Below are positions 2,943 to 55,914 of a stretch of DNA of 64,000 nt, piece by piece; position 1 is the first letter of the stretch; every line of letters begins with the position of its first letter. The notes below the pieces were generated by a model. It saw only the letters and a program-made list of their open reading frames with translations. It ran no database searches and was not told the origin of the DNA. The position numbers were made by a program, and so were the translations under genes. Source of the stretch: Lentisphaeria bacterium (lineage in GTDB: Bacteria > Verrucomicrobiota > Lentisphaeria > Oligosphaerales > Oligosphaeraceae); contig JAEEYQ010000023.1 in assembly GCA_016288215.1 (NCBI GenBank), forward strand, positions 1-64,000. The letters are read 5' to 3'.

Positions 2943-2950
2943 TTTATGTA

Positions 2951-3097
2951 ATTAGGAATTAGAAATTAGAAATTAGGAGTTAGGAATTAGGAATTAGGAA
3001 TTGGGAATTAGGAATTAGGAATTAGGAATTAGGAGTTAGGAATTGGGAATTGGGAGTTAGGAGTTAGGAATTGGGAATTAGGAATTGGGAATTAGGA
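2951..3097. repeat. Tandem 7-bp repeat array (RTTRGGA), 21 units
   Basis: Twenty-one contiguous heptads can be counted. Most are ATTAGGA; the variants are GTTAGGA, ATTGGGA and ATTAGAA. There is no spacer, so it is not a CRISPR array. It fills the gap between the ymdB start and the end of the next gene upstream. The same unit recurs in arrays at 5642-5676 and 16337-16371 and, degraded, near 55795-55850. The 7-bp period resembles the short tandemly repeated heptanucleotide sequences known from filamentous cyanobacteria. Confidence 0.95.
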
Positions 3098-3115
3098 ATT
3101 TAGGTAGCAGTTAGC

Positions 3116-3150
3116 GGTTTGAAGTTAACGTTTTGAAGTTAACGTTTTGA
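3116..3150. repeat. Tandem 14-bp repeat, 2.5 units
   Basis: Two units of GTTTTGAAGTTAAC (one base different in the first) are followed by a half unit. The period is twice that of the adjacent heptad array, from which it is separated by about 18 bp. It lies just past the stop codon of the F420 ligase-like gene. Confidence 0.85.
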
Positions 3151-3173: not shown

Positions 3174-4364
3174 TTAGCTTGCGTAGTTGTCGAAATAGCC
3201 CTGAATGAGGACGACGGGCGTCCCTTTGTCTCCGGAGCCGCTGGTCAAATCGCAGAGGCTGCCCAACAGATCCGTCAGCTGGCGCGGCGTCGTGCCCAGG
3301 GACTCCTCCTTGCCCACCAGATTGCCGCCTTTGGCGCGGATGCGCTCCAAAATCTGCTCTCGGACGGTTTTGTCGTCTGATGTGGCTTTTTGGGCGGTAT
3401 CAGCTAAGTATTTGAGCTTCAGTTCGTTAGGTGTTCCTTTCAACCCGCTGGTGAAGCCGGGGGAGACCACGGGGTCCGCCAGTTCCCAAATCTTGCCGAC
3501 GGGATCTTTGAAGGCGCCGTCGCCATAGACCATGACCTCCACCTTCTTGCCAGTGGCGGCGAGAAGACGTGCCTGAATGTCCTCCACCAGCCGTTGGCAG
3601 TCTCTGGGGAACAGCTTCACGCGGTCATCGTCGGATTTGTTCGAGCCCAACAGTCCGTAGGTTTCGTTGTAGCCTGCGCCTGGCTCCACAGGGGCGGTGC
3701 AGATGTCGTCCAGCCCGAGGACGGTCTGGGCGCCGGCGGCGAGAAGCAGCCGTTTGCTGCGGCGGCGGGTATGGATGTCCGCCATCAGCACATGTTTGGT
3801 GAACGGAAGAATGGCGCGGACATCGTTGGCGAAATGGATGACGGCCTTCTCCGGCCCCACAATCTCCTTGTACATCGCCACATAGTCCATTCCCGTGAAG
3901 GGATGGAGCACCTTCTCGCCGAAGACGCGGCGGTACTGCGCCTCATCCAGCACGTCCGTGTGAGGGTCGATGCCGCTGGCGTCCAACGCATCCAAGTCCA
4001 TGAGATGGTTGCCCACCTCGTCGGAGGGATAGCTGAACATCAGATGAACTTTGTCCGCGCCCATGGCGATGGCCTTGAGCAGGATGGAGAAGCGGTTGCG
4101 GCTCAGGATGGGGAAGACGACGGCCAATTCGCCGCCGGGGAACTTCGAACGGATGTCCGCCGCAATCTGCCCGATGGTGACGTAGTTGCCCTGCGTTCGG
4201 GCCACCACGGATTCCGTGATGCCGACCACGTCTTTGTCACGGAGTTCATAATTGTCTTCACGGCAACTAGTTAGCAAAGAGTCTACAACTTGGCTGGCCA
4301 AATTGTCACCACTTCGGAAAATTGGGCAGCGGATGCCACGGACAAGGGTCCCAACAGTTCGCAT
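3174..4364 (-). CDS. Coenzyme F420-0:L-glutamate ligase-like protein
   Basis: A 396-residue protein that resembles the long bacterial homologues of CofE, the GTP-dependent F420-0 gamma-glutamyl ligase. The N-terminal TVGTLVRGIRCPIFRSGDNLA is followed by DVVGITESVVARTQGNYVTI, which matches the ligase's conserved D-x-V-V-x-x-E-x-x-V-A-x-x-x-G pattern. The middle contains FTGMDYVAMYKEIV and a GLDDICTAPVEPGAGYNETYGLLGSNK stretch starting near residue 220. No other F420 gene is nearby and PVC bacteria are not established F420 users, so the true substrate may be another acid-amine ligation. It has its own putative promoter and a leader hairpin, and an AGGAG ribosome site precedes ATG 4364. Confidence 0.65.
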   Translation of the reverse strand: MRTVGTLVRGIRCPIFRSGDNLASQVVDSLLTSCREDNYELRDKDVVGITESVVARTQGNYVTIGQIAADIRSKFPGGELAVVFPILSRNRFSILLKAIAMGADKVHLMFSYPSDEVGNHLMDLDALDASGIDPHTDVLDEAQYRRVFGEKVLHPFTGMDYVAMYKEIVGPEKAVIHFANDVRAILPFTKHVLMADIHTRRRSKRLLLAAGAQTVLGLDDICTAPVEPGAGYNETYGLLGSNKSDDDRVKLFPRDCQRLVEDIQARLLAATGKKVEVMVYGDGAFKDPVGKIWELADPVVSPGFTSGLKGTPNELKLKYLADTAQKATSDDKTVREQILERIRAKGGNLVGKEESLGTTPRQLTDLLGSLCDLTSGSGDKGTPVVLIQGYFDNYAS

Positions 4365-5607: not shown

Positions 5608-5638
5608 CTAGACTATCTAGACTATCTATATTATCTAG
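5608..5638. repeat. Tandem 9-bp repeat (CTAGACTAT)
   Basis: Two exact copies of CTAGACTAT and one variant CTATATTAT are followed by CTAG. It directly precedes an 18-bp segment, CTAGTAAAATTCCTAATT, that is identical at 16330-16347. Both copies of that segment lead into a heptad array. Confidence 0.85.
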
Positions 5639-5641
5639 TAA

Positions 5642-5676
5642 AATTCCTAATTTCTAATTCCTAATTCCTAATTTCT
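5642..5676. repeat. Tandem 7-bp array (AATTCCT), 5 units, overlapping the end of the giant gene
   Basis: Five heptads (AATTCCT/AATTTCT) form the same family as the 2951-3097 array, in the opposite orientation. The stop codon of the 2175-residue protein (5663-5661) lies inside the array, so its last residues (LEIRN) are encoded by repeat units. Confidence 0.9.
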
Positions 5677-8600
5677 AGCGCCTTCTGTCTGAAATTGTCA
5701 ATCAAGAAGGTGGTTTGGTTGGACATCTGCAGGTTGAAGGAGAAGAGGAGACCGAACGTGACGGGAGGCTGTTTTTTGGGGAATACCGGCGTCTTCTGGA
5801 ACGTGAAGGTCATCTTCTGCCATGGAGAATCTCCCTTGAACGCCACTGGCTCCGAGACCACAGGCGCCTTTTCGTTTTTGTAGTGGATGACCAGGCGCAC
5901 CTCTCCGGCGTTTTTGCCCATTGTCAGCATGTCCAAAGAGAAGGGTTGCTTCCAGTCCGGTGGATCCATGAGTTTTTTGGGGTTGACAAGGTACTGGAAG
6001 CCCTTGTCCTTTGCGACGTCGAAATCGATGTATCGGATGGCGAGCAGTTGATTGCCTTTTGGTGTTTGAGCCTGTCGCATCATGATTCTGGCGCCGCTTT
6101 TGGCGGTGACCGGTGCGACATGGCCGCCAATGGCGTGACAGACCTCCAGGCCATCCGGTCCCGTTTGCGGCGCGGCGCCCATTCCATCGGGGCAGATGAA
6201 GGGCCAGGTGCCGATGGCCCCCGCGTTGCCCGCGCCATCCACGCTGCGGGCATGGACGTACCAGAGGCCTTCACGGTCCGCGCAGGGAAGTTGCGTCAGA
6301 TTGGGCTGTTCGCTGGTAAGGAACGTGCCTTCCTCCCATGTTGTTGTGGGACTGCGGCTTATCTTGTATTCATGGTGGTGGATGCCCGTGGCATCCGAAT
6401 TGGAGAGGGTGGTGATCGGCAGAGGGCTGGCCGCCATGAAATAAAGCTTTTCAATGCAGAGGGCCGCATCCGACGTGGACGAACAGTAGAAGGAGAGCTG
6501 CTGGACCTTCTTTTCCATTTCGTTTGGTTGAATTTGGGCGACAATGGTTTCCAGATTAATGGCAAGGTCATGCCATTCGCCATCGGCGATGAAATCCGTC
6601 ACATGGAAGACGCTGTTGGGCTCCGCCGTCTCCGAAATCTGGACGGGATACCATTGGCCATTGACCATGAGCCCCATATTTATCTTGCTGTCGGGCGGGA
6701 GGTTATAGCTAAAATGCATCCATCGGCGATGCTCTTTCCAGAGGGTGGTGATGTCCTTTGCACCGCCGAAGCCCGGACGGGCTGACGATCTTGCCTTGAA
6801 TTCCGTCACGTTGATATGCTCTGGCGATTTGCCGACATTGCTAATGTCGGTGTTGGCTCTGTACTGGGGGAGCGGACGCCATGACACGGTTTGCTCGGGG
6901 CTACTGCCAAGGGCTCCTGTCATGGCGGTGGCGCGGGGGGCCTTGGGCGGCGTGGTGTCTTTGGAATAGTCGAGGCTCCAGGACGTGTCGGCGGTCGCCA
7001 TGGCGATGCCCGCGAAATTGCGGACACCGCTGAGTTTGGCGCGGAAGGTCTGGCCGTCGCTGAGGGGCTTTCCCTTGCGGGGGAGGGCGAGCAGATTGAA
7101 GCGCAGACAGCGGGTTTCGGGAGTCCATTGGGCGACTTTGCGCGTGACGGGAATGGTGAGGTCGTTGAACTCCAGCAGGGCGCCGTTGAGGTCGAGGCGG
7201 CCGACGCTTTCAGGCGTGAAGATGAAATCCAGGGTCTCGGGAGCGGACTGCTCCTGATTGGCGGGGGAAATGCGTTCCACCTCCGGCAGGGCGTTGTCCA
7301 CCAAAAAGGCGTAATGGGTTGTGGGGCCCCAGTTTCCGGCCATGTCGCAGGCGCGGATGTGGAAGAAGTTCAGCCCTTCCTGCAAATGGGCGAACTTGAG
7401 GCGGTTTTCCGTGGTGCGGATGGCTTTCTCCGCCTCTGTATCCTCTTGATTGTTCCAGAGATAGCTATAGCCACGGAGGCCGCCGGCGTCCATGCCGCTC
7501 CACGTGAGAATCAACGGTTCGTGCATCGGCGAAACCCGTTTTGCGAGCATGACGTTGGACAGGTCGTAGGAGTCGCCAGGGATGGCTCCGCTGTAGTTCC
7601 AATTGCCGAAGGCGAGTTTCTGCGTGTTCAGATTTTGGCGGAAGACATCGGTGACTTGGGGCAGCAGGAGAGTCTGCAAGTCCACGCGCGCACGGTGCCA
7701 CTGTCCGTCCGCCCTGAACTCGGGAAGATCACCTAAATACCTGTATCGCGAGGACTTCTCAAAATCGGTGAGGCCGACGATGCCTCCCCATCCGCCCATG
7801 CTCAGCTGGAGGTCGATTCGCGTGCCTTCATTCAGGCGGTAGTCGAAGAACATGATGGGGAAGCGGGCGATGTCGAATTTGGGCAGGTTGAAATGGACGC
7901 TGTGAGGAGAGCCGCAGATGGCGTTGATGACCTTGACGGCGGGCGTGCCGTCCTGCCGCAGGAAATGCTGCAGCTCGCAGTAGGGGTATTTGCCCTTGTC
8001 GGTGGCGCATTCATCCTCCCAACTCCTTGTGCCACAAAGACTTCCGGCAGTTCCAGCCACCAAGACCGGCCCTGGGGGCGTCTTGTCATCCTTTGGATTC
8101 AACGTGCAGGACCATGTGTGGGGCGGCCGTCCCTCCTGCTGGAAGCTGCATTCCAGTTTGCCATGGGAGAGCAGGCTGGCGGCATTGGGCAGACGGACGG
8201 CGATGGTGGCGCAGCGTTGCGTCTCATCCCATTCCACCGTCTCCGGACTGAGGGGGAGGGAGATGCCGCCGACCTTCAGGCTGCCGGAAAGCCGTGGCCA
8301 GCAGGGGATGTTTGGAGTGAACCACAGCTTCATGGGTCCCAGGTCCCACGCGCCGTTGTCTTTCGGCTCCGTCCGAATGACGGCGGATGGCGAGAAGACG
8401 GAGATGGTGCAGGGGGGAACCCGATGCCAAGTGTCCGACTCGTCACACCATTCGCCATGGACATAGTGGAGGCCGGCGGACTCTGGAATGAAGGTGCCCG
8501 TCCGGTTTTGGCTTGACGGACAGTCGTTGGGCGGCTCGCCCACAGGAGAGACGCTGAGCCATGTTCGGAACTCCTTTGGATTCAATGAGTTAGGAATATT

Positions 8601-11600
8601 CCATGTGCCAGTCACCGCGTCGCCGATGGAGCAGGCGGGAAGGATGTTCAGGTTGTCCATAAACCACACCGCGCCGGCGGAATTGCCCTCCAGACCCGCG
8701 TTCAGATAGCCCTCGTGGAGCATGCCGAACATGAGGCTGCTGACGGTCCAGCTTTCCCGCCATGGATTGTGCTTGTGGAGAAGCGCGGCCAAATCCACGC
8801 TGACGTGGCTCCATTGGCCAGGCACAAGACCGTGGAAGGCGCCAAGCACCTTGAAGTTCTGAAATTCCGCGTCGGGGCCACTGAGGGTGATGCTGTACAG
8901 GACAAGCGGCGCCTCTTGCGTGGTGAAGTAGAGGTTAATATGGCTGCCTTCGGGAATCATGGCGTCGAATTCCAGCCGTTCCACATTGTCCAGCCGCCAC
9001 TTGTCGGCGGGAATGCGGAAGCCGAAATCGCCGCCGGAATTCGCGTTGCGAGCCTGCAGACAGTGGCCGCCGCCGGGGCGGGACACGCGGCTGAGCTCCG
9101 CGCTTTGGTCGCCGTTCCATGGGGTGATGCCGTGAAGACCATCCTCAAAATCCGCCGTATAGCCTCCATAATTCAATAAGGATAATGAAATGTCGGAAGC
9201 CATTGATGGCGAGGTTGTTGTAGATGAATTGTAAGTTGTTGCGGCAGAGGATGTTATATGATTTGTTCCTGCAAGAGGGGCTTTCCGTTCCATGGTGGTG
9301 TAATTGACTTTCACACGGGCCAGAACGATGCTGTTGCTTTGGGTCCAAAGGGCGAGTTTGCCCATGGCCTGACGGGCTTGTTCGGGCTCTTTGGCATGAA
9401 AGATCAACGCGTTGTCAAAATAGATGTCAAACGTATCGTCGGTCTTGCGGATTTTGAGGGCGTACCATGCGCCGTGGACGGGACGGCCACCGGGGTCCCA
9501 ATCCACGGGAATGGCCCGCTCGGTGGGGCGGGTGGCGCGGCCTCGGGGGATGAGCTCCTGATCCGTTTGGTCAATCAACGTGTTCTTCCACAGCAATTTA
9601 GTCCAGGTTTCGCTCCATTTGGGATCCCACTGCTGGATGATCAGATTGAAGCCGGAGAACAGCTCTCGCCCGTCGGCGGCCATGGCCACGTTGATGTCTC
9701 CCACCCGCGGTTCACCGCTGAGGGCCGCGTTGCGGAACTCCCCCTGCCACATGCGCATGCCCGCGAAGCATTCGATGGTGAAATCCCCCTTCAGGTCGAA
9801 TTTGCTCCAGAGGGCGGCGGCGCCGGTGCTTTCTCCAGTCATGTGGGACCATCTGGGGTCGCAGGAGAAGCGGTTGGTGACCTCCCAACGACCCACGCTG
9901 GTCCAGTCGGTCTCCGCCTGCTCGAAGAGATAGTCTTTGACATGCTCCCGAGTCAGCTCAAGATGAATCATGTCCATGGGTTTGGGCAGGGAAACGGCCA
10001 TGCCGCGGCCGACGGCGGGGGTCGGCTCGTGGTGGCAGAAGAGCTCCCGTCCGTCCAAACAGACCCAGATGGCGTGGCCGTCTCGATGCAGTTCCACGGT
10101 TCCCCACGTCTCCGTGTCAGGCGTCTTGGGGCGGAGGCCGATCTTCTCGTCCACAATCTCCTGTCCAGGCAGGATGGAGGGTTTGCGGTTCTTGAATTCG
10201 GCGCTTTGGCAGAGCTGTCCGTCGCGGGAGAGGGAGATTGTGCCGCTGCCGTCGACGCCGTTGAGGCGGCAGCGCAGCATGTAGCCGTTGCCGCCGCCCA
10301 ATTCCGCGTCGTCGCAGCCAAAGAACACATCCAGCTGGTCCTGCAGGGGAATCTTGAGGGCGAAGGCGCCGTAGAGGTCGCCCGTGAAAGTGCGGAGCTG
10401 CGGAAAAGTCGTCTTGTCCTGGTCGGGTTTCGTCAGCCATGCGTAGCGGGTGGAGACCCAGCCCTGCATAAAGGGGTCGTTGGCGAAGCGGGAGATATCC
10501 ACCGGCTTCTCCCAATCCCGCTGGAGCGTGTCGAAGGCGCAGATGCCGTGGAAGCAGGCCCGGCCGTCGGCGAAGAGGCCGCAGGCGCCGCTGATATCCA
10601 CTTCCGTGGCGTGACGGAGGGCGAGTCGGTCGTCAATCCACAGTTCGAGATGATGGGGCGTGGTGCAGTCCAGGCTGATTTTCATGGGCTTTTCCGTTGT
10701 CCATGGCCACGGCAGCTCCTCCAGCAGATGATTTCCGTTCCAAATCTCGATGACGCCGCCATTTCGGGCGGACCAGCCGGCTTTCCAGAAGGGCCTGCCG
10801 TCCTCTCCGAGCCCGCAGACCAGCCCGCAGGAGATGGCTTCCTCCGGCGTGCAGACGGCGGTGAAGCGTTGGGGCGCCCAATGGTTCCAGCCGACTTGGA
10901 AGAGGGCGTCGGAGCCTTTGGAGCGGAGCACGCCTTCTTCCAGGCTCCATGAGCCATGGAGCGGTTTGCCGGCGGTGAGAAGAAGGTCAGGATCGTCCAG
11001 TCGGCGGAGGCTTCGGACGGACACATCGTCGAAATAGGTTTCGCCTTTTCCCTCCGTGCGGAGCAGAATGCCGCCGCCGGTGCCGTCCTCCGTCTCGTGC
11101 CGAAAGAGCTCAACGTCATCCAAAAGGACCACTAAGCGGTTGCCTTGGAGTTGGATGGCCAAACGCCACCAATTGGCGGTGCGCCCTTCCAGAAGGACGC
11201 TTTTCACTACCGTGTCAACACCGTTGACGCGATGGAGCAGCTCAAAGGGGGCGGCGGCAACGCCGAGGGAGGGGGGACGCCAGCGCACGTGCCAGAAGTT
11301 GTTCTCGTCCTGCACGGCGACGCCCATGCCGAAGCCCGTGCCAAAGGGTTTGACGGAGACCGCCGCCTCGTAGTCACTCCACCAGGCATGGCCGGTTTGG
11401 ATGAGGGCCTCCTGTCCCTCCTCCGCCGCATCGCCGGAGAGGCAGAAAGGGTTGGGGCTGCGGTCGGAGGCGGGTTCATAGCCTTTGCGGATGTTGGCGG
11501 TCCCCATGTCATGGACGTGCTCCATCACGGAGTAGATTTTCCATTGGCCGGAGACGGGGTGCCAGAGGCCCATGTCCTTCGCCTCCTCTTCCGTCCGCAT

Positions 11601-12188
11601 GAAATCATCGCCGAAGACAAAAGGCTCCAGCCGCTGATACTCCACGTCCTTCACGGCGAGACAGCCATCGCCGATGCCCACGGCGATGTCTCCCGACGCA
11701 AAGTCTTCCAGCAGGAAGCGGGCGTGGCGGTGGCCGTCCTGAATCAACTCCAGCACGTCGTCTTTGCGACGAAGCCGCAGACGGCCGCCGGCCAAATTGG
11801 CGGGCAGGGGGACGGAACGGCGGGCAACCACCTGAAGGCGCCCTTTGCGCGTGTGGGCGATGACCAGACCGTTGGCGTCCCAATGCAGTCGGGACTGTTT
11901 TTGGGGGGATTCGGTGAACTCCAGCCGCAGACAGTCCCCGACCGTCTCTCCCATGTGAAAGAGCAGGTCAAAATGCTCATGGCGAGCGGTTTTGACCCCT
12001 TGCGTGGGCAGGGGGCGCAGCGCCTCCTCCGCTTGCGGGGAGCCGTGGGTTCGCAGAACATAGAGGAGAAGCAGCAATGCGGCAGCCACGGGAACCAGAC
12101 TCCAGGCCAATTTGGCTAGACAGACTGGATCCCGCCAACTGAAATTCCGCTGAAATCGTTCCCGCCAACGTTGCATATTTATAACCAT
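5661..12188 (-). CDS. Giant membrane-anchored multidomain protein (2175 residues)
   Basis: A basic N-terminus is followed by one membrane segment at about residues 27-45 (LVPVAAALLLLLYVL) with no obvious cleavage site, so about 2100 residues should sit outside the inner membrane. The body repeats concanavalin-like beta-sandwich modules: for example, near residues 260-395 one ends with RLVVLLDDVELFRHET and YFDDVSVRSL, and near 815-985 another has GAWYALKIRKTDDTFDIYFDN. The second half alternates jelly-roll modules that have the pattern W-x-H-V/A-x-V-D-L and end in a V-W-F-M-D-N-L type edge strand with Ig-like modules containing LFTP-, DNALPEVERISPANQE- and DTTPP-type linkers. No catalytic motif is recognised. 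A carbohydrate- or surface-binding scaffold is the likely role. The C-terminus runs into a repeat array. Confidence 0.85.
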   Translation of the reverse strand: MVINMQRWRERFQRNFSWRDPVCLAKLAWSLVPVAAALLLLLYVLRTHGSPQAEEALRPLPTQGVKTARHEHFDLLFHMGETVGDCLRLEFTESPQKQSRLHWDANGLVIAHTRKGRLQVVARRSVPLPANLAGGRLRLRRKDDVLELIQDGHRHARFLLEDFASGDIAVGIGDGCLAVKDVEYQRLEPFVFGDDFMRTEEEAKDMGLWHPVSGQWKIYSVMEHVHDMGTANIRKGYEPASDRSPNPFCLSGDAAEEGQEALIQTGHAWWSDYEAAVSVKPFGTGFGMGVAVQDENNFWHVRWRPPSLGVAAAPFELLHRVNGVDTVVKSVLLEGRTANWWRLAIQLQGNRLVVLLDDVELFRHETEDGTGGGILLRTEGKGETYFDDVSVRSLRRLDDPDLLLTAGKPLHGSWSLEEGVLRSKGSDALFQVGWNHWAPQRFTAVCTPEEAISCGLVCGLGEDGRPFWKAGWSARNGGVIEIWNGNHLLEELPWPWTTEKPMKISLDCTTPHHLELWIDDRLALRHATEVDISGACGLFADGRACFHGICAFDTLQRDWEKPVDISRFANDPFMQGWVSTRYAWLTKPDQDKTTFPQLRTFTGDLYGAFALKIPLQDQLDVFFGCDDAELGGGNGYMLRCRLNGVDGSGTISLSRDGQLCQSAEFKNRKPSILPGQEIVDEKIGLRPKTPDTETWGTVELHRDGHAIWVCLDGRELFCHHEPTPAVGRGMAVSLPKPMDMIHLELTREHVKDYLFEQAETDWTSVGRWEVTNRFSCDPRWSHMTGESTGAAALWSKFDLKGDFTIECFAGMRMWQGEFRNAALSGEPRVGDINVAMAADGRELFSGFNLIIQQWDPKWSETWTKLLWKNTLIDQTDQELIPRGRATRPTERAIPVDWDPGGRPVHGAWYALKIRKTDDTFDIYFDNALIFHAKEPEQARQAMGKLALWTQSNSIVLARVKVNYTTMERKAPLAGTNHITSSAATTYNSSTTTSPSMASDISLSLLNYGGYTADFEDGLHGITPWNGDQSAELSRVSRPGGGHCLQARNANSGGDFGFRIPADKWRLDNVERLEFDAMIPEGSHINLYFTTQEAPLVLYSITLSGPDAEFQNFKVLGAFHGLVPGQWSHVSVDLAALLHKHNPWRESWTVSSLMFGMLHEGYLNAGLEGNSAGAVWFMDNLNILPACSIGDAVTGTWNIPNSLNPKEFRTWLSVSPVGEPPNDCPSSQNRTGTFIPESAGLHYVHGEWCDESDTWHRVPPCTISVFSPSAVIRTEPKDNGAWDLGPMKLWFTPNIPCWPRLSGSLKVGGISLPLSPETVEWDETQRCATIAVRLPNAASLLSHGKLECSFQQEGRPPHTWSCTLNPKDDKTPPGPVLVAGTAGSLCGTRSWEDECATDKGKYPYCELQHFLRQDGTPAVKVINAICGSPHSVHFNLPKFDIARFPIMFFDYRLNEGTRIDLQLSMGGWGGIVGLTDFEKSSRYRYLGDLPEFRADGQWHRARVDLQTLLLPQVTDVFRQNLNTQKLAFGNWNYSGAIPGDSYDLSNVMLAKRVSPMHEPLILTWSGMDAGGLRGYSYLWNNQEDTEAEKAIRTTENRLKFAHLQEGLNFFHIRACDMAGNWGPTTHYAFLVDNALPEVERISPANQEQSAPETLDFIFTPESVGRLDLNGALLEFNDLTIPVTRKVAQWTPETRCLRFNLLALPRKGKPLSDGQTFRAKLSGVRNFAGIAMATADTSWSLDYSKDTTPPKAPRATAMTGALGSSPEQTVSWRPLPQYRANTDISNVGKSPEHINVTEFKARSSARPGFGGAKDITTLWKEHRRWMHFSYNLPPDSKINMGLMVNGQWYPVQISETAEPNSVFHVTDFIADGEWHDLAINLETIVAQIQPNEMEKKVQQLSFYCSSTSDAALCIEKLYFMAASPLPITTLSNSDATGIHHHEYKISRSPTTTWEEGTFLTSEQPNLTQLPCADREGLWYVHARSVDGAGNAGAIGTWPFICPDGMGAAPQTGPDGLEVCHAIGGHVAPVTAKSGARIMMRQAQTPKGNQLLAIRYIDFDVAKDKGFQYLVNPKKLMDPPDWKQPFSLDMLTMGKNAGEVRLVIHYKNEKAPVVSEPVAFKGDSPWQKMTFTFQKTPVFPKKQPPVTFGLLFSFNLQMSNQTTFLIDNFRQKALEIRN

Positions 12189-16282: not shown

Positions 16283-16329
16283 GAATCAGGAATTTGGAAA
16301 ATGTCGTTTCTAGCTAGCCCCTAGAAGCC

Positions 16330-16371
16330 CTAGTAAAATTCCTAATTCCTAATTCCTAATTCCTAATTCTT
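16330..16371. repeat. Tandem 7-bp array (AATTCCT), 5 units, with shared lead-in
   Basis: An 18-bp lead-in identical to 5635-5652 runs into five AATTCCT heptads (16337-16371), 11 bp before the guaB stop codon. This is the 99-bp gap between two convergent genes; no clear intrinsic terminator is visible in it. Confidence 0.9.
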
Positions 16372-16381
16372 TAGCTCTCTT

Positions 16382-17893
16382 CTACATCGTCTGGGGGTGG
16401 TTCAGGCTGTCCTTGACCAGAACATCGTGAGCGCCGCCTTCCACCAACGAGACACTGGAGACCAAGGTCAGTTTGGCGTTCTTCTGAAGGTCGGGAATGG
16501 TCAGCACGCCGCAGTTGCACATGGTGTGGCGGATTTTCGCCAGCGTGATTTCCAACGTGTGATGCAGTGGACCGGCGTAGGGGACATAGCTGTCCACGCC
16601 TTCCACAAAGGACAGTTTCTTCTTGCTGCTCTGCCCGTAGCGGGCCACATTTTGGGCCCGTGCGCTGCCTTCGCCCCAATATTCCTTCATGTAGCTGCCG
16701 TTGATCTGGATGATTTCGCTGGGGGCCTCGTCAAAGCGTGCGAAATAGCGTCCCAACATGCAGAAATCGGCTCCCATGGCCAACGCCAACGTGATATGGT
16801 AGTCGTGGACGATGCCGCCGTCGGAGCAGATGGGAATGTAGATTCCGGTCTTCTTGTAGTATTCATCGCGGGCCTGGGCAATCTCGATGACGGCGGTGGC
16901 CTGGCCGCGGCCGATGCCTTTGGTTTCCCGCGTGATGCAGATGGAGCCGCCTCCGATGCCAATCTTCACGAAGTCCGCTCCTGCCTCCGCCAGGAACAGG
17001 AAGCCGTCTTTGTCCACCACGTTGCCCGCGCCGATTTTGACGGAGTCGCCGTATTTGGCGCGGACGAAGGCGATGGTGCGCTTTTGCCATTCCGTGTAAC
17101 CCTCGCTGGAGTCGATGCAAAGGATGTCCGCGCCGGCTTCCACCAAGGCGGGGATCCGCTCCTCGTAGTCCTTCGTGTTGATGCCCGCGCCCACGAGGAA
17201 GCGGTGTTGGGCGTCCAGAAGCTCCAGCGGATTCTCCTTGTGTTGGTCATAGTCCTTGCGGAAGACGAAGGCGACGAAATGGCCGTCCTTGTCCACCACG
17301 GGCAGGGTGTTGAGCTTGTGTTCCCAAATGCGGTCGTAGGCCTCCTGCAGGGTGATGCCCTCTTGGGCGGTGACCAGTTTGGAGATGGGGGTCATGAAAG
17401 AGGAGACCTTGGCGCCGGAGGCGATGCGCTCCAAGCTGTAGTCGCTGCTGGTGACCATGCCCAGCAGGAGCCCGTTGGGGGTGCCGTCGTCCGTGATCGC
17501 CACGGTGGAGTGTTTGGTGCGGTCCTTCAGCTCCAGCACGTCCTCCAAGGTGTTGTCTGGAGTCAGGTTGGAGTCCGACGAGACGAAGCCTGCCTTATGG
17601 GTCTTGACCGCGCGGACCATGGCCGCCTCGCTCTCGATGGTCTGATTGCCGTAGATGAAGGAGAGGCCGCCTTCGCGGGCCAGGGCGATGGCCAGCCGGT
17701 CGCCCGAAACTGCCTGCATGATGGCGGAGACCAGCGGGATGTTCAGCGTCAGGGAGGGTTTCTCCCCTTTGGCGAACTTGACCAGCGGCGTCTTCAGGGA
17801 GACGTTGGAGGGAAGACAGTCCGGTCCCGTGTAGCCTGGAATCAGAAGATATTCACTGAAAGTATGGGACGGTTCATCATAATAGAACGCCAT
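16382..17893 (-). CDS. guaB: IMP dehydrogenase
   Basis: Oxidises IMP to XMP with NAD+, the committed step of guanine nucleotide synthesis. There are 503 residues. Tandem CBS domains lie between about residues 95 and 215 ([30 protein letters not shown]). The barrel carries [28 protein letters not shown] and the catalytic loop [18 protein letters not shown] with Cys319. [19 protein letters not shown] and [12 protein letters not shown] follow. GGGSICITR instead of the common GPGSICTTR is typical of the eukaryote-like/protist branch. The ribosome site AGGAGGT is perfect. It is a single gene, convergent with the GH10-like gene. Confidence 0.95.
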
Positions 17894-42742: not shown

Positions 42743-42919
42743 TTGTCAACTCCCATGGGTGAAAACGGATACGTTTAGGAAAAAGAACACTATAATGCGG
42801 ATAGAGGGAATTTCAATTCGCCATCTTCCATTTGTCCACCCTCGTGCCTTGAGGGAATCCGATAGGTGGGGCGGCTGTCACTTGTACACTCTTCACTTTT
42901 CACTTTCCCGTGCCTTCCG

Positions 42920-45304: not shown

Positions 45305-45570
45305 AAAGTGCCCCCGTCTCCAGTCCCCCGTCTCCAGTCCCCCGTCTCTCGTCCCGTGGTTCTCGTCTCGCGTCTCGCGTCTCGCGTCCCGCGCCAGATT
45401 CCTGCCTGTTCGTGGGCTTCGCTTCACCCACATTAGGCTCCTGCCACCGATTCGCGGTTCTATAACTCTAACTTTCTCGTATACCGTGGGTTACGCTTAT
45501 GCCTACGGCGTTGCGCTTACCCACGGCTATTATCCTGCCGCCGCCATAGCGGCTCTTCTTTTTCCGCATG
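45305..45570 (-). repeat. ~200-bp interspersed repeat, copy A (inverted partner at 50144)
   Basis: Read on the minus strand, this copy matches 50144-50349 closely over about 190 bp, by eye roughly 80-85% identical with small gaps. It starts with a GCCGC/GCGGC hairpin, then CCGTGGGT...ACCCACGG around GCC-GTA-GGC, and ends in 7- and 14-bp tandem units (GACGCGA; GGAGACGGGGGACT). The whole gap 45138-45709 holds no convincing gene: besides this repeat there is the hairpin at 45140 and a GCCTT-AAGGC hairpin near 45582. Confidence 0.8.
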
Positions 45571-50143: not shown

Positions 50144-50349
50144 CATGCTGAAAAAGAAGAGCCGCTTTGGCGGCGACAGGATATTAGCCGTGGGAAAGCG
50201 CAACGCCGTAGGCGTAAGCGTAGCCCACGGTGCACGAGAAAGTTAGAGTTTTGGAACCGCGTAGCGGTGGTAGAAGCCTGATGTGGGACGCGAGACGTGA
50301 ATAGCGGGATGGGGGACGTGGGACGCGAGACGGGAGACGGGGGCGCTCA
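50144..50349 (+). repeat. ~200-bp interspersed repeat, copy B (inverted partner at 45305)
   Basis: Plus-strand copy of the element described at 45305-45570. It contains CATGCTGAAAAAGAAGAGCC, a GCCGC-TTT-GGCGGC hairpin, a second structure with CCGTGGG/CCCACGG arms and a perfect ACGCC-GTA-GGCGT inner stem, then degenerate GGGACGCGAGACG units. Together with copy A it brackets the GH123, M28 and M55 genes. Confidence 0.8.
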
Positions 50350-53954: not shown

Positions 53955-54006
53955 GGGACGGGAGACGCGGGACGTGGAACGCGGGACAATATATTATGGA
54001 ATATAT
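53955..54006. repeat. GACG-type degenerate array and AT inverted repeat
   Basis: GGGACGGGAGACGCGGGACG-like units resemble the tail of the ~200-bp repeat. An inverted repeat, ATATATT-ATGG-AATATAT (53989-54006), adjoins them. They occupy the gap upstream of the clan GH-A gene; nothing else is visible between 53905 and 54073. Confidence 0.6.
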
Positions 54007-55794: not shown

Positions 55795-55850
55795 TCAGAA
55801 ATTAATAATTGAAAATTGGGAAATAGGAATTGGCGGTTAGAAGTTGGAGG
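55795..55850. repeat. Degenerate heptad-like repeat stretch
   Basis: Units resembling GAATTGG, AAATTAA and GGTTAGAA occur at roughly 7-10 bp spacing between the PhnP-like gene and the kinase-fold gene. They look like a decayed version of the RTTRGGA arrays. Confidence 0.45.
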
Positions 55851-55914
55851 AGGGGGAAATCGGGCTGGCTTATCATGCAATGCATATTTCCAATTTCCTA
55901 ATTACTTAGAGATA

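Follow-up and report, generated by a model that had tools for sequence, protein, structure and literature searches.

The heptad repeat arrays of a Lentisphaeria bacterium, encountered in a 64,000-nucleotide stretch of its genome (contig JAEEYQ010000023.1; hereafter the window), may well be the terminal repeats of small non-coding intergenic insertion elements, with a number of units that is altered by slippage. The observations behind this reading comprise a genome-wide excess of period 7 carried by several sequence families, a strand polarity at gene edges, a composite order of heptads and inner repeats, a dispersed element with heptads at its ends, and reciprocal filled/empty sites. Heptad repeats have been on record for years, but their origin is not agreed upon; the combination of a cross-phylum, multi-unit polarity with heptad-bounded copies and empty sites makes both their period and their placement testable.

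Heptad arrays of the window

TRF delimits an AATTAGG heptad array at 2950-3100 (+ strand; period 7, 21.6 copies, 88% matches, score 225), and the window holds 18 matches to three RTTRGGA units in a row, versus 0 in 100 dinucleotide shuffles. The initial annotation had counted 21 contiguous RTTRGGA units at this site; 21 units do run from position 2951, but units 2 and 3 read ATTAGAA, so that 19 of the 21 fit the pattern. The 5′ edge of the array lies 7 bp off the start codon of a YmdB-like metallophosphoesterase gene (2160-2942, - strand), in whose sense the repeat reads CCTAATT and which is devoid of a Shine-Dalgarno sequence. Homologues of this gene are found in 26 of 29 family genomes, with the alignment beginning at residue 1 or 2 in nearly all of them. 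Across the array lies the stop codon of an F420-0:gamma-glutamyl ligase-like gene (3174-4364, - strand). The inner side of the array is occupied by a 14-bp tandem repeat, (AGTTAACGTTTTGA)x3, at 3109-3150 (no strand assigned; TRF period 14, 3.0 copies), whose unit in its exact form is confined to this single site in a 798-kb sample of the genome. It had been described as 2x7, and the repeat is indeed present, but its two halves are unlike. In three relatives (L135/G009, L140/G019 and L138/G027) the YmdB orthologue also has C-rich-sense repeats upstream, near its start, of a different sequence (CTCACCT heptads and CGTCCCAAT-like nonamers).

The related arrays reported elsewhere in the window all exist. 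An AATTAGG array at 5642-5677 (- strand) provides the stop codon of a 2175-aa ORF (5661-12188, - strand) and is flanked on its inner side by a CTAG nonamer array with the consensus CTAGACTAT (5608-5638, - strand), both being recognized by TRF. This ORF is the longest of the window, and its C-terminus enters the heptad array. Another TRF-recognized AATTAGG array (16337-16369, - strand) is located between two convergent genes, just past the adjoining stop codon of an IMPDH-like gene (16382-17893, - strand), with a CTAG nonamer stretch (16310-16333, - strand) on its inner side. TRF also returned arrays of a second family, GRGACGN, at 45311-45393 (- strand), 50304-50343 (+ strand) and 53955-53987 (+ strand), and a weak array of a third, GTGAARA-type family at 42878-42906 (- strand). 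The AATTAGG array described as decayed at 55795-55850 (+ strand) is so by its sequence, and strongly; it has an inverted arm at about 55886-55906, the two forming an inward-facing pair. The genes beside the arrays in the window are unrelated to one another, and an Rfam search of the window yielded one tRNA only.

Excess of period 7 in the home genome

The home genome (G000, in which the window is contig C30) comprises 3.70 Mb in 73 contigs, with 57% GC in the 798-kb sample, and carries three heptad families (AATTAGG, GRGACGN and GTGAARA). Triple-unit matches amount genome-wide to 122 (overlapping) for RTTRGGA and to 254 for GRGACGN, versus 0 for the respective reversed patterns. The GTGAARA family is abundant across the genome and weak within the window; its reversed-pattern control is invalid because the reversal matches the same arrays. 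The genome-wide count proposed in the initial annotation thus finds the arrays beyond the window, and its view of two sequence families sharing one period is upheld as to multiple families, but there are three of them, GTGAARA having been missed.

In the 798-kb sample TRF detected 92 period-7 and 41 period-14 arrays, whereas a first-order Markov shuffle had 21 arrays over all periods, none of them of period 7. AATTAGG arrays number 51 in these 798 kb. Mostly coding arrays make up 2/92 at period 7 versus 23/25 at period 12. The period statistics come from sampled stretches, the 798-kb sample being partly picked for array-bearing contigs; in a 212-kb subset picked by contig number only, period 7 also leads (14 of 34 non-ORF arrays, with 6 of period 14). 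The suspected excess over other periods is therefore real: period 7 dominates the intergenic tandem arrays of the home genome, and 7-bp tandem units in clear excess and mostly outside genes are what Rehm et al. described for other bacteria (see below).

Strand polarity at gene edges

In the AATTAGG elements of the home genome the G-rich strand sets out from the border of a gene and points away from it. A gene border lies at most 20 bp from the 5′ edge of this strand in 45/62 elements (null mean 12.8, maximum 25 in 10000 placements) and from its 3′ edge in 3/62, so that an ORF is close on the 5′ side of the G-rich strand, as in the repeats of Rehm et al. Gene calls were mechanical or based on a simple codon model. 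Since ORF callers can misplace starts, stop codons were used for a clean test of polarity; AATTAGG has stops in all frames of both strands, and each side of an array is therefore equally able to end an ORF. Stop edges in the home genome gave 29/31 on the left versus 4/34 on the right. Over more than ten other phyla, sampled as stretches and with all heptads taken together, the values were 96/130 versus 16/107 (p 1.5e-20), and the polarity persisted with one array per locus (44/57 versus 12/52). Arrays of other periods in these phyla displayed no significant stop-edge asymmetry, though their numbers are few. By phylum, the polarity is clear in Bacteroidota, Bacillota and Acidobacteriota; in Chloroflexota it is reversed, with very small numbers, and counts are also small for the remaining phyla. 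In additional genomes of the same phylum 12/13 arrays obey it.

The stop codon lies inside the array in 19/36 same-strand genes, and 14 genes begin 3-20 bp past an array, nearly all of them without a Shine-Dalgarno sequence (55% of all genes have an SD-like one). Docked arrays are found at stops more often than at starts. By rewriting stop codons and displacing Shine-Dalgarno sites, the arrays bear on the annotation of gene ends in heptad-rich genomes. In tandem gene pairs the two orientations with respect to transcription are about equally frequent (22 and 24), and the polarity rule therefore operates at the level of DNA rather than mRNA. Neighboring arrays on opposite strands in other phyla face each other with their G-rich strands inward in 48 cases and outward in 1, and in 22 of the 48 inward-facing pairs both arms have an identical unit consensus.

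Two further ideas on the gene-edge placement were rejected. An R-loop forming behind the terminating ribosome would fit the stop edges, but neither the C-rich-sense arrays at starts nor the balanced orientation. A left-to-right gradient of decay is not apparent either, as right-side units are more numerous in the home genome and elsewhere differ little when the longest core is used; we therefore claim no direction of growth.

Composite structure of the elements

CTAG nonamers, (TTCTAGAGC)n, adjoin the AATTAGG elements of the home genome on the inner (right) side in 33/63 cases and on the outer (left) side in 0/63. Conversely, of the 19 CTAG arrays with nine-base spacing, 18 lie next to AATTAGG on its inner side, and 167 of the 379 CTAGs of the sample are located within 150 bp on the inner side of an AATTAGG array. 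In 16/32 nonamer composites no more than 50 bp of spacer separates the composite from the far gene; five of these stop 11-15 bp short of a start codon. Further AATTAGG arrays run inward into REP-like palindromes (TCAGCCCCGAAGGGGCGG); the association is modular, because REP-like bodies are also present without heptads. The same order recurs in a relative, G012, where some AATTAGG arrays are followed by other nonamers (AAGGGACCC, CCTAGGCTC).

Several additional observations concern the same spacers. CTAG is about eightfold depleted in the 798-kb sample (379 seen, ~2985 expected). Many intergenic regions of the home genome, with and without heptads, hold dispersed copies of a REP-like palindromic element, TCAGCCCCGAAGGGGCGG...CAGCCCGGGGTAAGCG...CAAGCCCTGAAGGGGCGGCAGAAA (e.g. 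L087:7877-7966, L054:1255-1341 and L086:13775-13863, also L064, L079 and L083), and a second family is built round GTAACGATTCAGAACC...CAGCCCCGTTGGGGCTG. At L076 (G000:C17), L061 and L064, GRGACGN and GTGAARA arrays cluster round a shared non-tandem motif, AACGATTTATCAGTGACTTACG, often with at least two copies per spacer. In G012 (L162-L174) arrays of an AATGCTT heptad are repeatedly followed by GGAGGGGGAGGTATCCCCCTTGCCCCCTCTTC, and one spacer consists of three such array-plus-element units at a 69-bp spacing.

Evidence for insertion

In rumen Clostridiales we found a dispersed element of ~170 bp, present in five copies with a conserved core and unrelated flanks, which ends in a GGAATTA array on the left and a TAATTCC array on the right, the array lengths varying among copies. 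In being dispersed, set in unrelated surroundings and built of a conserved core with repeats at either end, the copies resemble a MITE-like, non-autonomous element with terminal repeats. In the home genome inner parts recur as well, but the arrays are mostly at one end only. Two Selenomonadaceae loci form a reciprocal filled/empty comparison (two sites, in genomes that are 75-80% identical), each genome having a heptad insert that is absent from the other; at both loci the insert falls precisely in the interval between a stop codon and the next gene's Shine-Dalgarno sequence. Within the family of the home genome orthologous spacers have diverged too far and gene order is not kept.

Inspection by eye revealed no target-site duplication, neither in the two filled sites nor in any of the five Clostridiales copies. 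Insertion after TTGAT, a target pentamer of the IS200/IS605 type, was rejected, as it applies to 6/63 elements only. A search for a mobilizing enzyme, with Y1 transposase as the sole candidate, found none: Y1 (RAYT) gave 4 hits in the home genome and 0 in the heptad-rich G012 (88% complete), and is present in heptad-poor relatives, its absence in G012 ruling it out as a general mobilizer.

Distribution among bacteria

At a length of 3.5 units AATTAGG occurs in 6 of 388 genomes of the phylum, more than once in four of these only, while other family members have different heptads or none and the unit sequences vary freely between relatives. Many of the compared genomes are metagenome bins. Among the matches listed for public genomes, the same query is found in more than ten phyla, including Bacteroidota, Bacillota, Acidobacteriota, Chloroflexota, Planctomycetota, Verrucomicrobiota/Kiritimatiellota, Patescibacteria and Spirochaetota. 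The arrays are therefore sporadic and recurrent rather than specifically cyanobacterial. Heptads, which the initial annotation had called a hallmark of filamentous cyanobacteria, are common in that group, but AATTAGG is spread over many phyla, and heptads are also on record in Xanthomonas (PMC4692102) and Beggiatoaceae (PMC4679880).

Origin of the arrays

In the insertion-element reading, the array would be the outer, gene-facing end of an element that carries heptads at a single end or at both, with their G-rich strand running inward as seen from the adjacent gene. The interior would be variable, consisting of CTAG nonamers or REP-like palindromes in the home genome, of other nonamers in its relative, and of hairpins or a conserved core in other phyla. 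Such elements may insert or spread into the few bp between genes and thereby replace a native stop codon or Shine-Dalgarno sequence, after which the heptad number would shift via replication slippage. Their spread could proceed by mobilization in trans or by template switching, and the arrays would probably be without gene-specific function.

Growth of arrays by local slippage, with a DNA polymerase slipping preferentially by ~7 bases (the polymerase-contact idea cited in PMC4692102) wherever selection tolerates it and no element involved, appears unlikely to us, even though it would suit both the strong preference for period 7 regardless of unit sequence and the varying unit number among copies of one element. 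Independent loci would not be expected to yield one dominant unit (the 51 AATTAGG arrays) or shared inner neighbors, nor would slippage yield a fixed strand polarity, or arrays that enclose conserved cores at loci unrelated to each other. The shared slippage mechanism put forward in the initial annotation can thus explain the change in unit number, but not why dozens of loci share one unit, why the polarity is fixed or why there is a link with nonamers and palindromes. For its other suggestion, a protein with a 7-bp reading register, none of the results gives any indication. A functional untranslated-region element (a leader for translation without a ribosome-binding site, a site for an RNA-binding protein, a quadruplex or part of a terminator) is improbable in our assessment. 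The arrays do abut starts and stops, many of those in other phyla appear by eye to have a stop codon on one side and a terminator-like hairpin on the other, and translational control has been proposed for TAACTGA arrays before RBS-less starts (MacGregor 2015, PMC4679880). On the other hand, such a role is at odds with the equal frequency of both orientations in tandem pairs, with the unrelated genes adjoining the arrays of the window, and with the sporadic occurrence within the phylum of units that differ freely between relatives; moreover, Rehm et al. could identify no regulatory role for their repeats (PMC4692102).

Healing of broken ends, in which a template-directed or slipping polymerase would add heptads in a telomere-like manner before the ends are rejoined, with breaks surviving only between genes, would explain the inward-facing pairs (48:1) as well as the lost native stops and Shine-Dalgarno sites. 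We regard it as very improbable: Ku is encoded in 0/29 family genomes, which rules out Ku-dependent end joining, no such polymerase has been identified, and conserved cores between arrays would still require a donor. Insertion of heptad-ended elements remains our preferred reading. Ordinary transposition, however, does not account for a polarity shared by unrelated heptads across unrelated phyla. We tentatively entertain a wider, rather speculative extension, namely that the heptad arrays of many phyla could stem from one shared and unrecognized process (mobilizing or template-switching) that always directs the G-rich strand from a coding boundary inward, and that they could be the ends of cross-phylum minimal non-coding mobile elements rather than simple sequence repeats.

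Relation to known repeats

A heptad excess in bacteria and heptads beside ORFs (in Xanthomonas, Nostoc and Beggiatoaceae) are already published; for the composite architecture, the heptad-bounded element copies and the cross-phylum test of polarity we found no description in the literature searched. REP/RAYT systems are similar in that REP-like palindromes form the interior beside several heptad arrays, but heptads are not palindromes, and the heptad-rich carrier genome G012 is without a Y1 transposase match. Tandem heptads enclosing small dispersed repeats (SDR) are reported to have been described in Nostoc by Elhai et al. in 2008. These reportedly likewise combine small dispersed non-coding elements with heptads, whereas the elements described here are longer and heptad-bounded.

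The TAACTGA direct repeats of marine Beggiatoaceae (MacGregor 2015, PMC4679880) end a few nt before mostly RBS-less starts and are sporadic across phyla, a few sets being reversed near stop codons. The arrays studied here share the location of heptads just before starts mostly without an RBS and the sporadic distribution, but have another unit and are docked more often at stops, whereas TAACTGA is mostly directed to start codons; the sections consulted describe no nonamer or palindrome partner. Closest are the heptads GGGAATC of Xanthomonas and GGGGA(C/T)T of Nostoc, which are genome-wide, intergenic and variable in length (Rehm et al. 2015, PMC4692102). Their placement relative to ORFs is in both organisms the one seen here, the Xanthomonas repeats being closer to the 5′ neighboring ORF (28 nt versus 160 nt), with 70-75 convergent pairs, and the authors quote earlier work on heptad excess and the idea of a polymerase contact (PMC4692102). 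Our arrays agree in period 7, genome-wide and intergenic occurrence, variable length and ORF-relative placement. They differ in that AATTAGG is joined to CTAG nonamers or palindromes and three unrelated units coexist in one genome, and the placement rule is tested here over many phyla and units. As AATTAGG has GG runs only, its predicted quadruplex formation is weaker than that of the units of Rehm et al.
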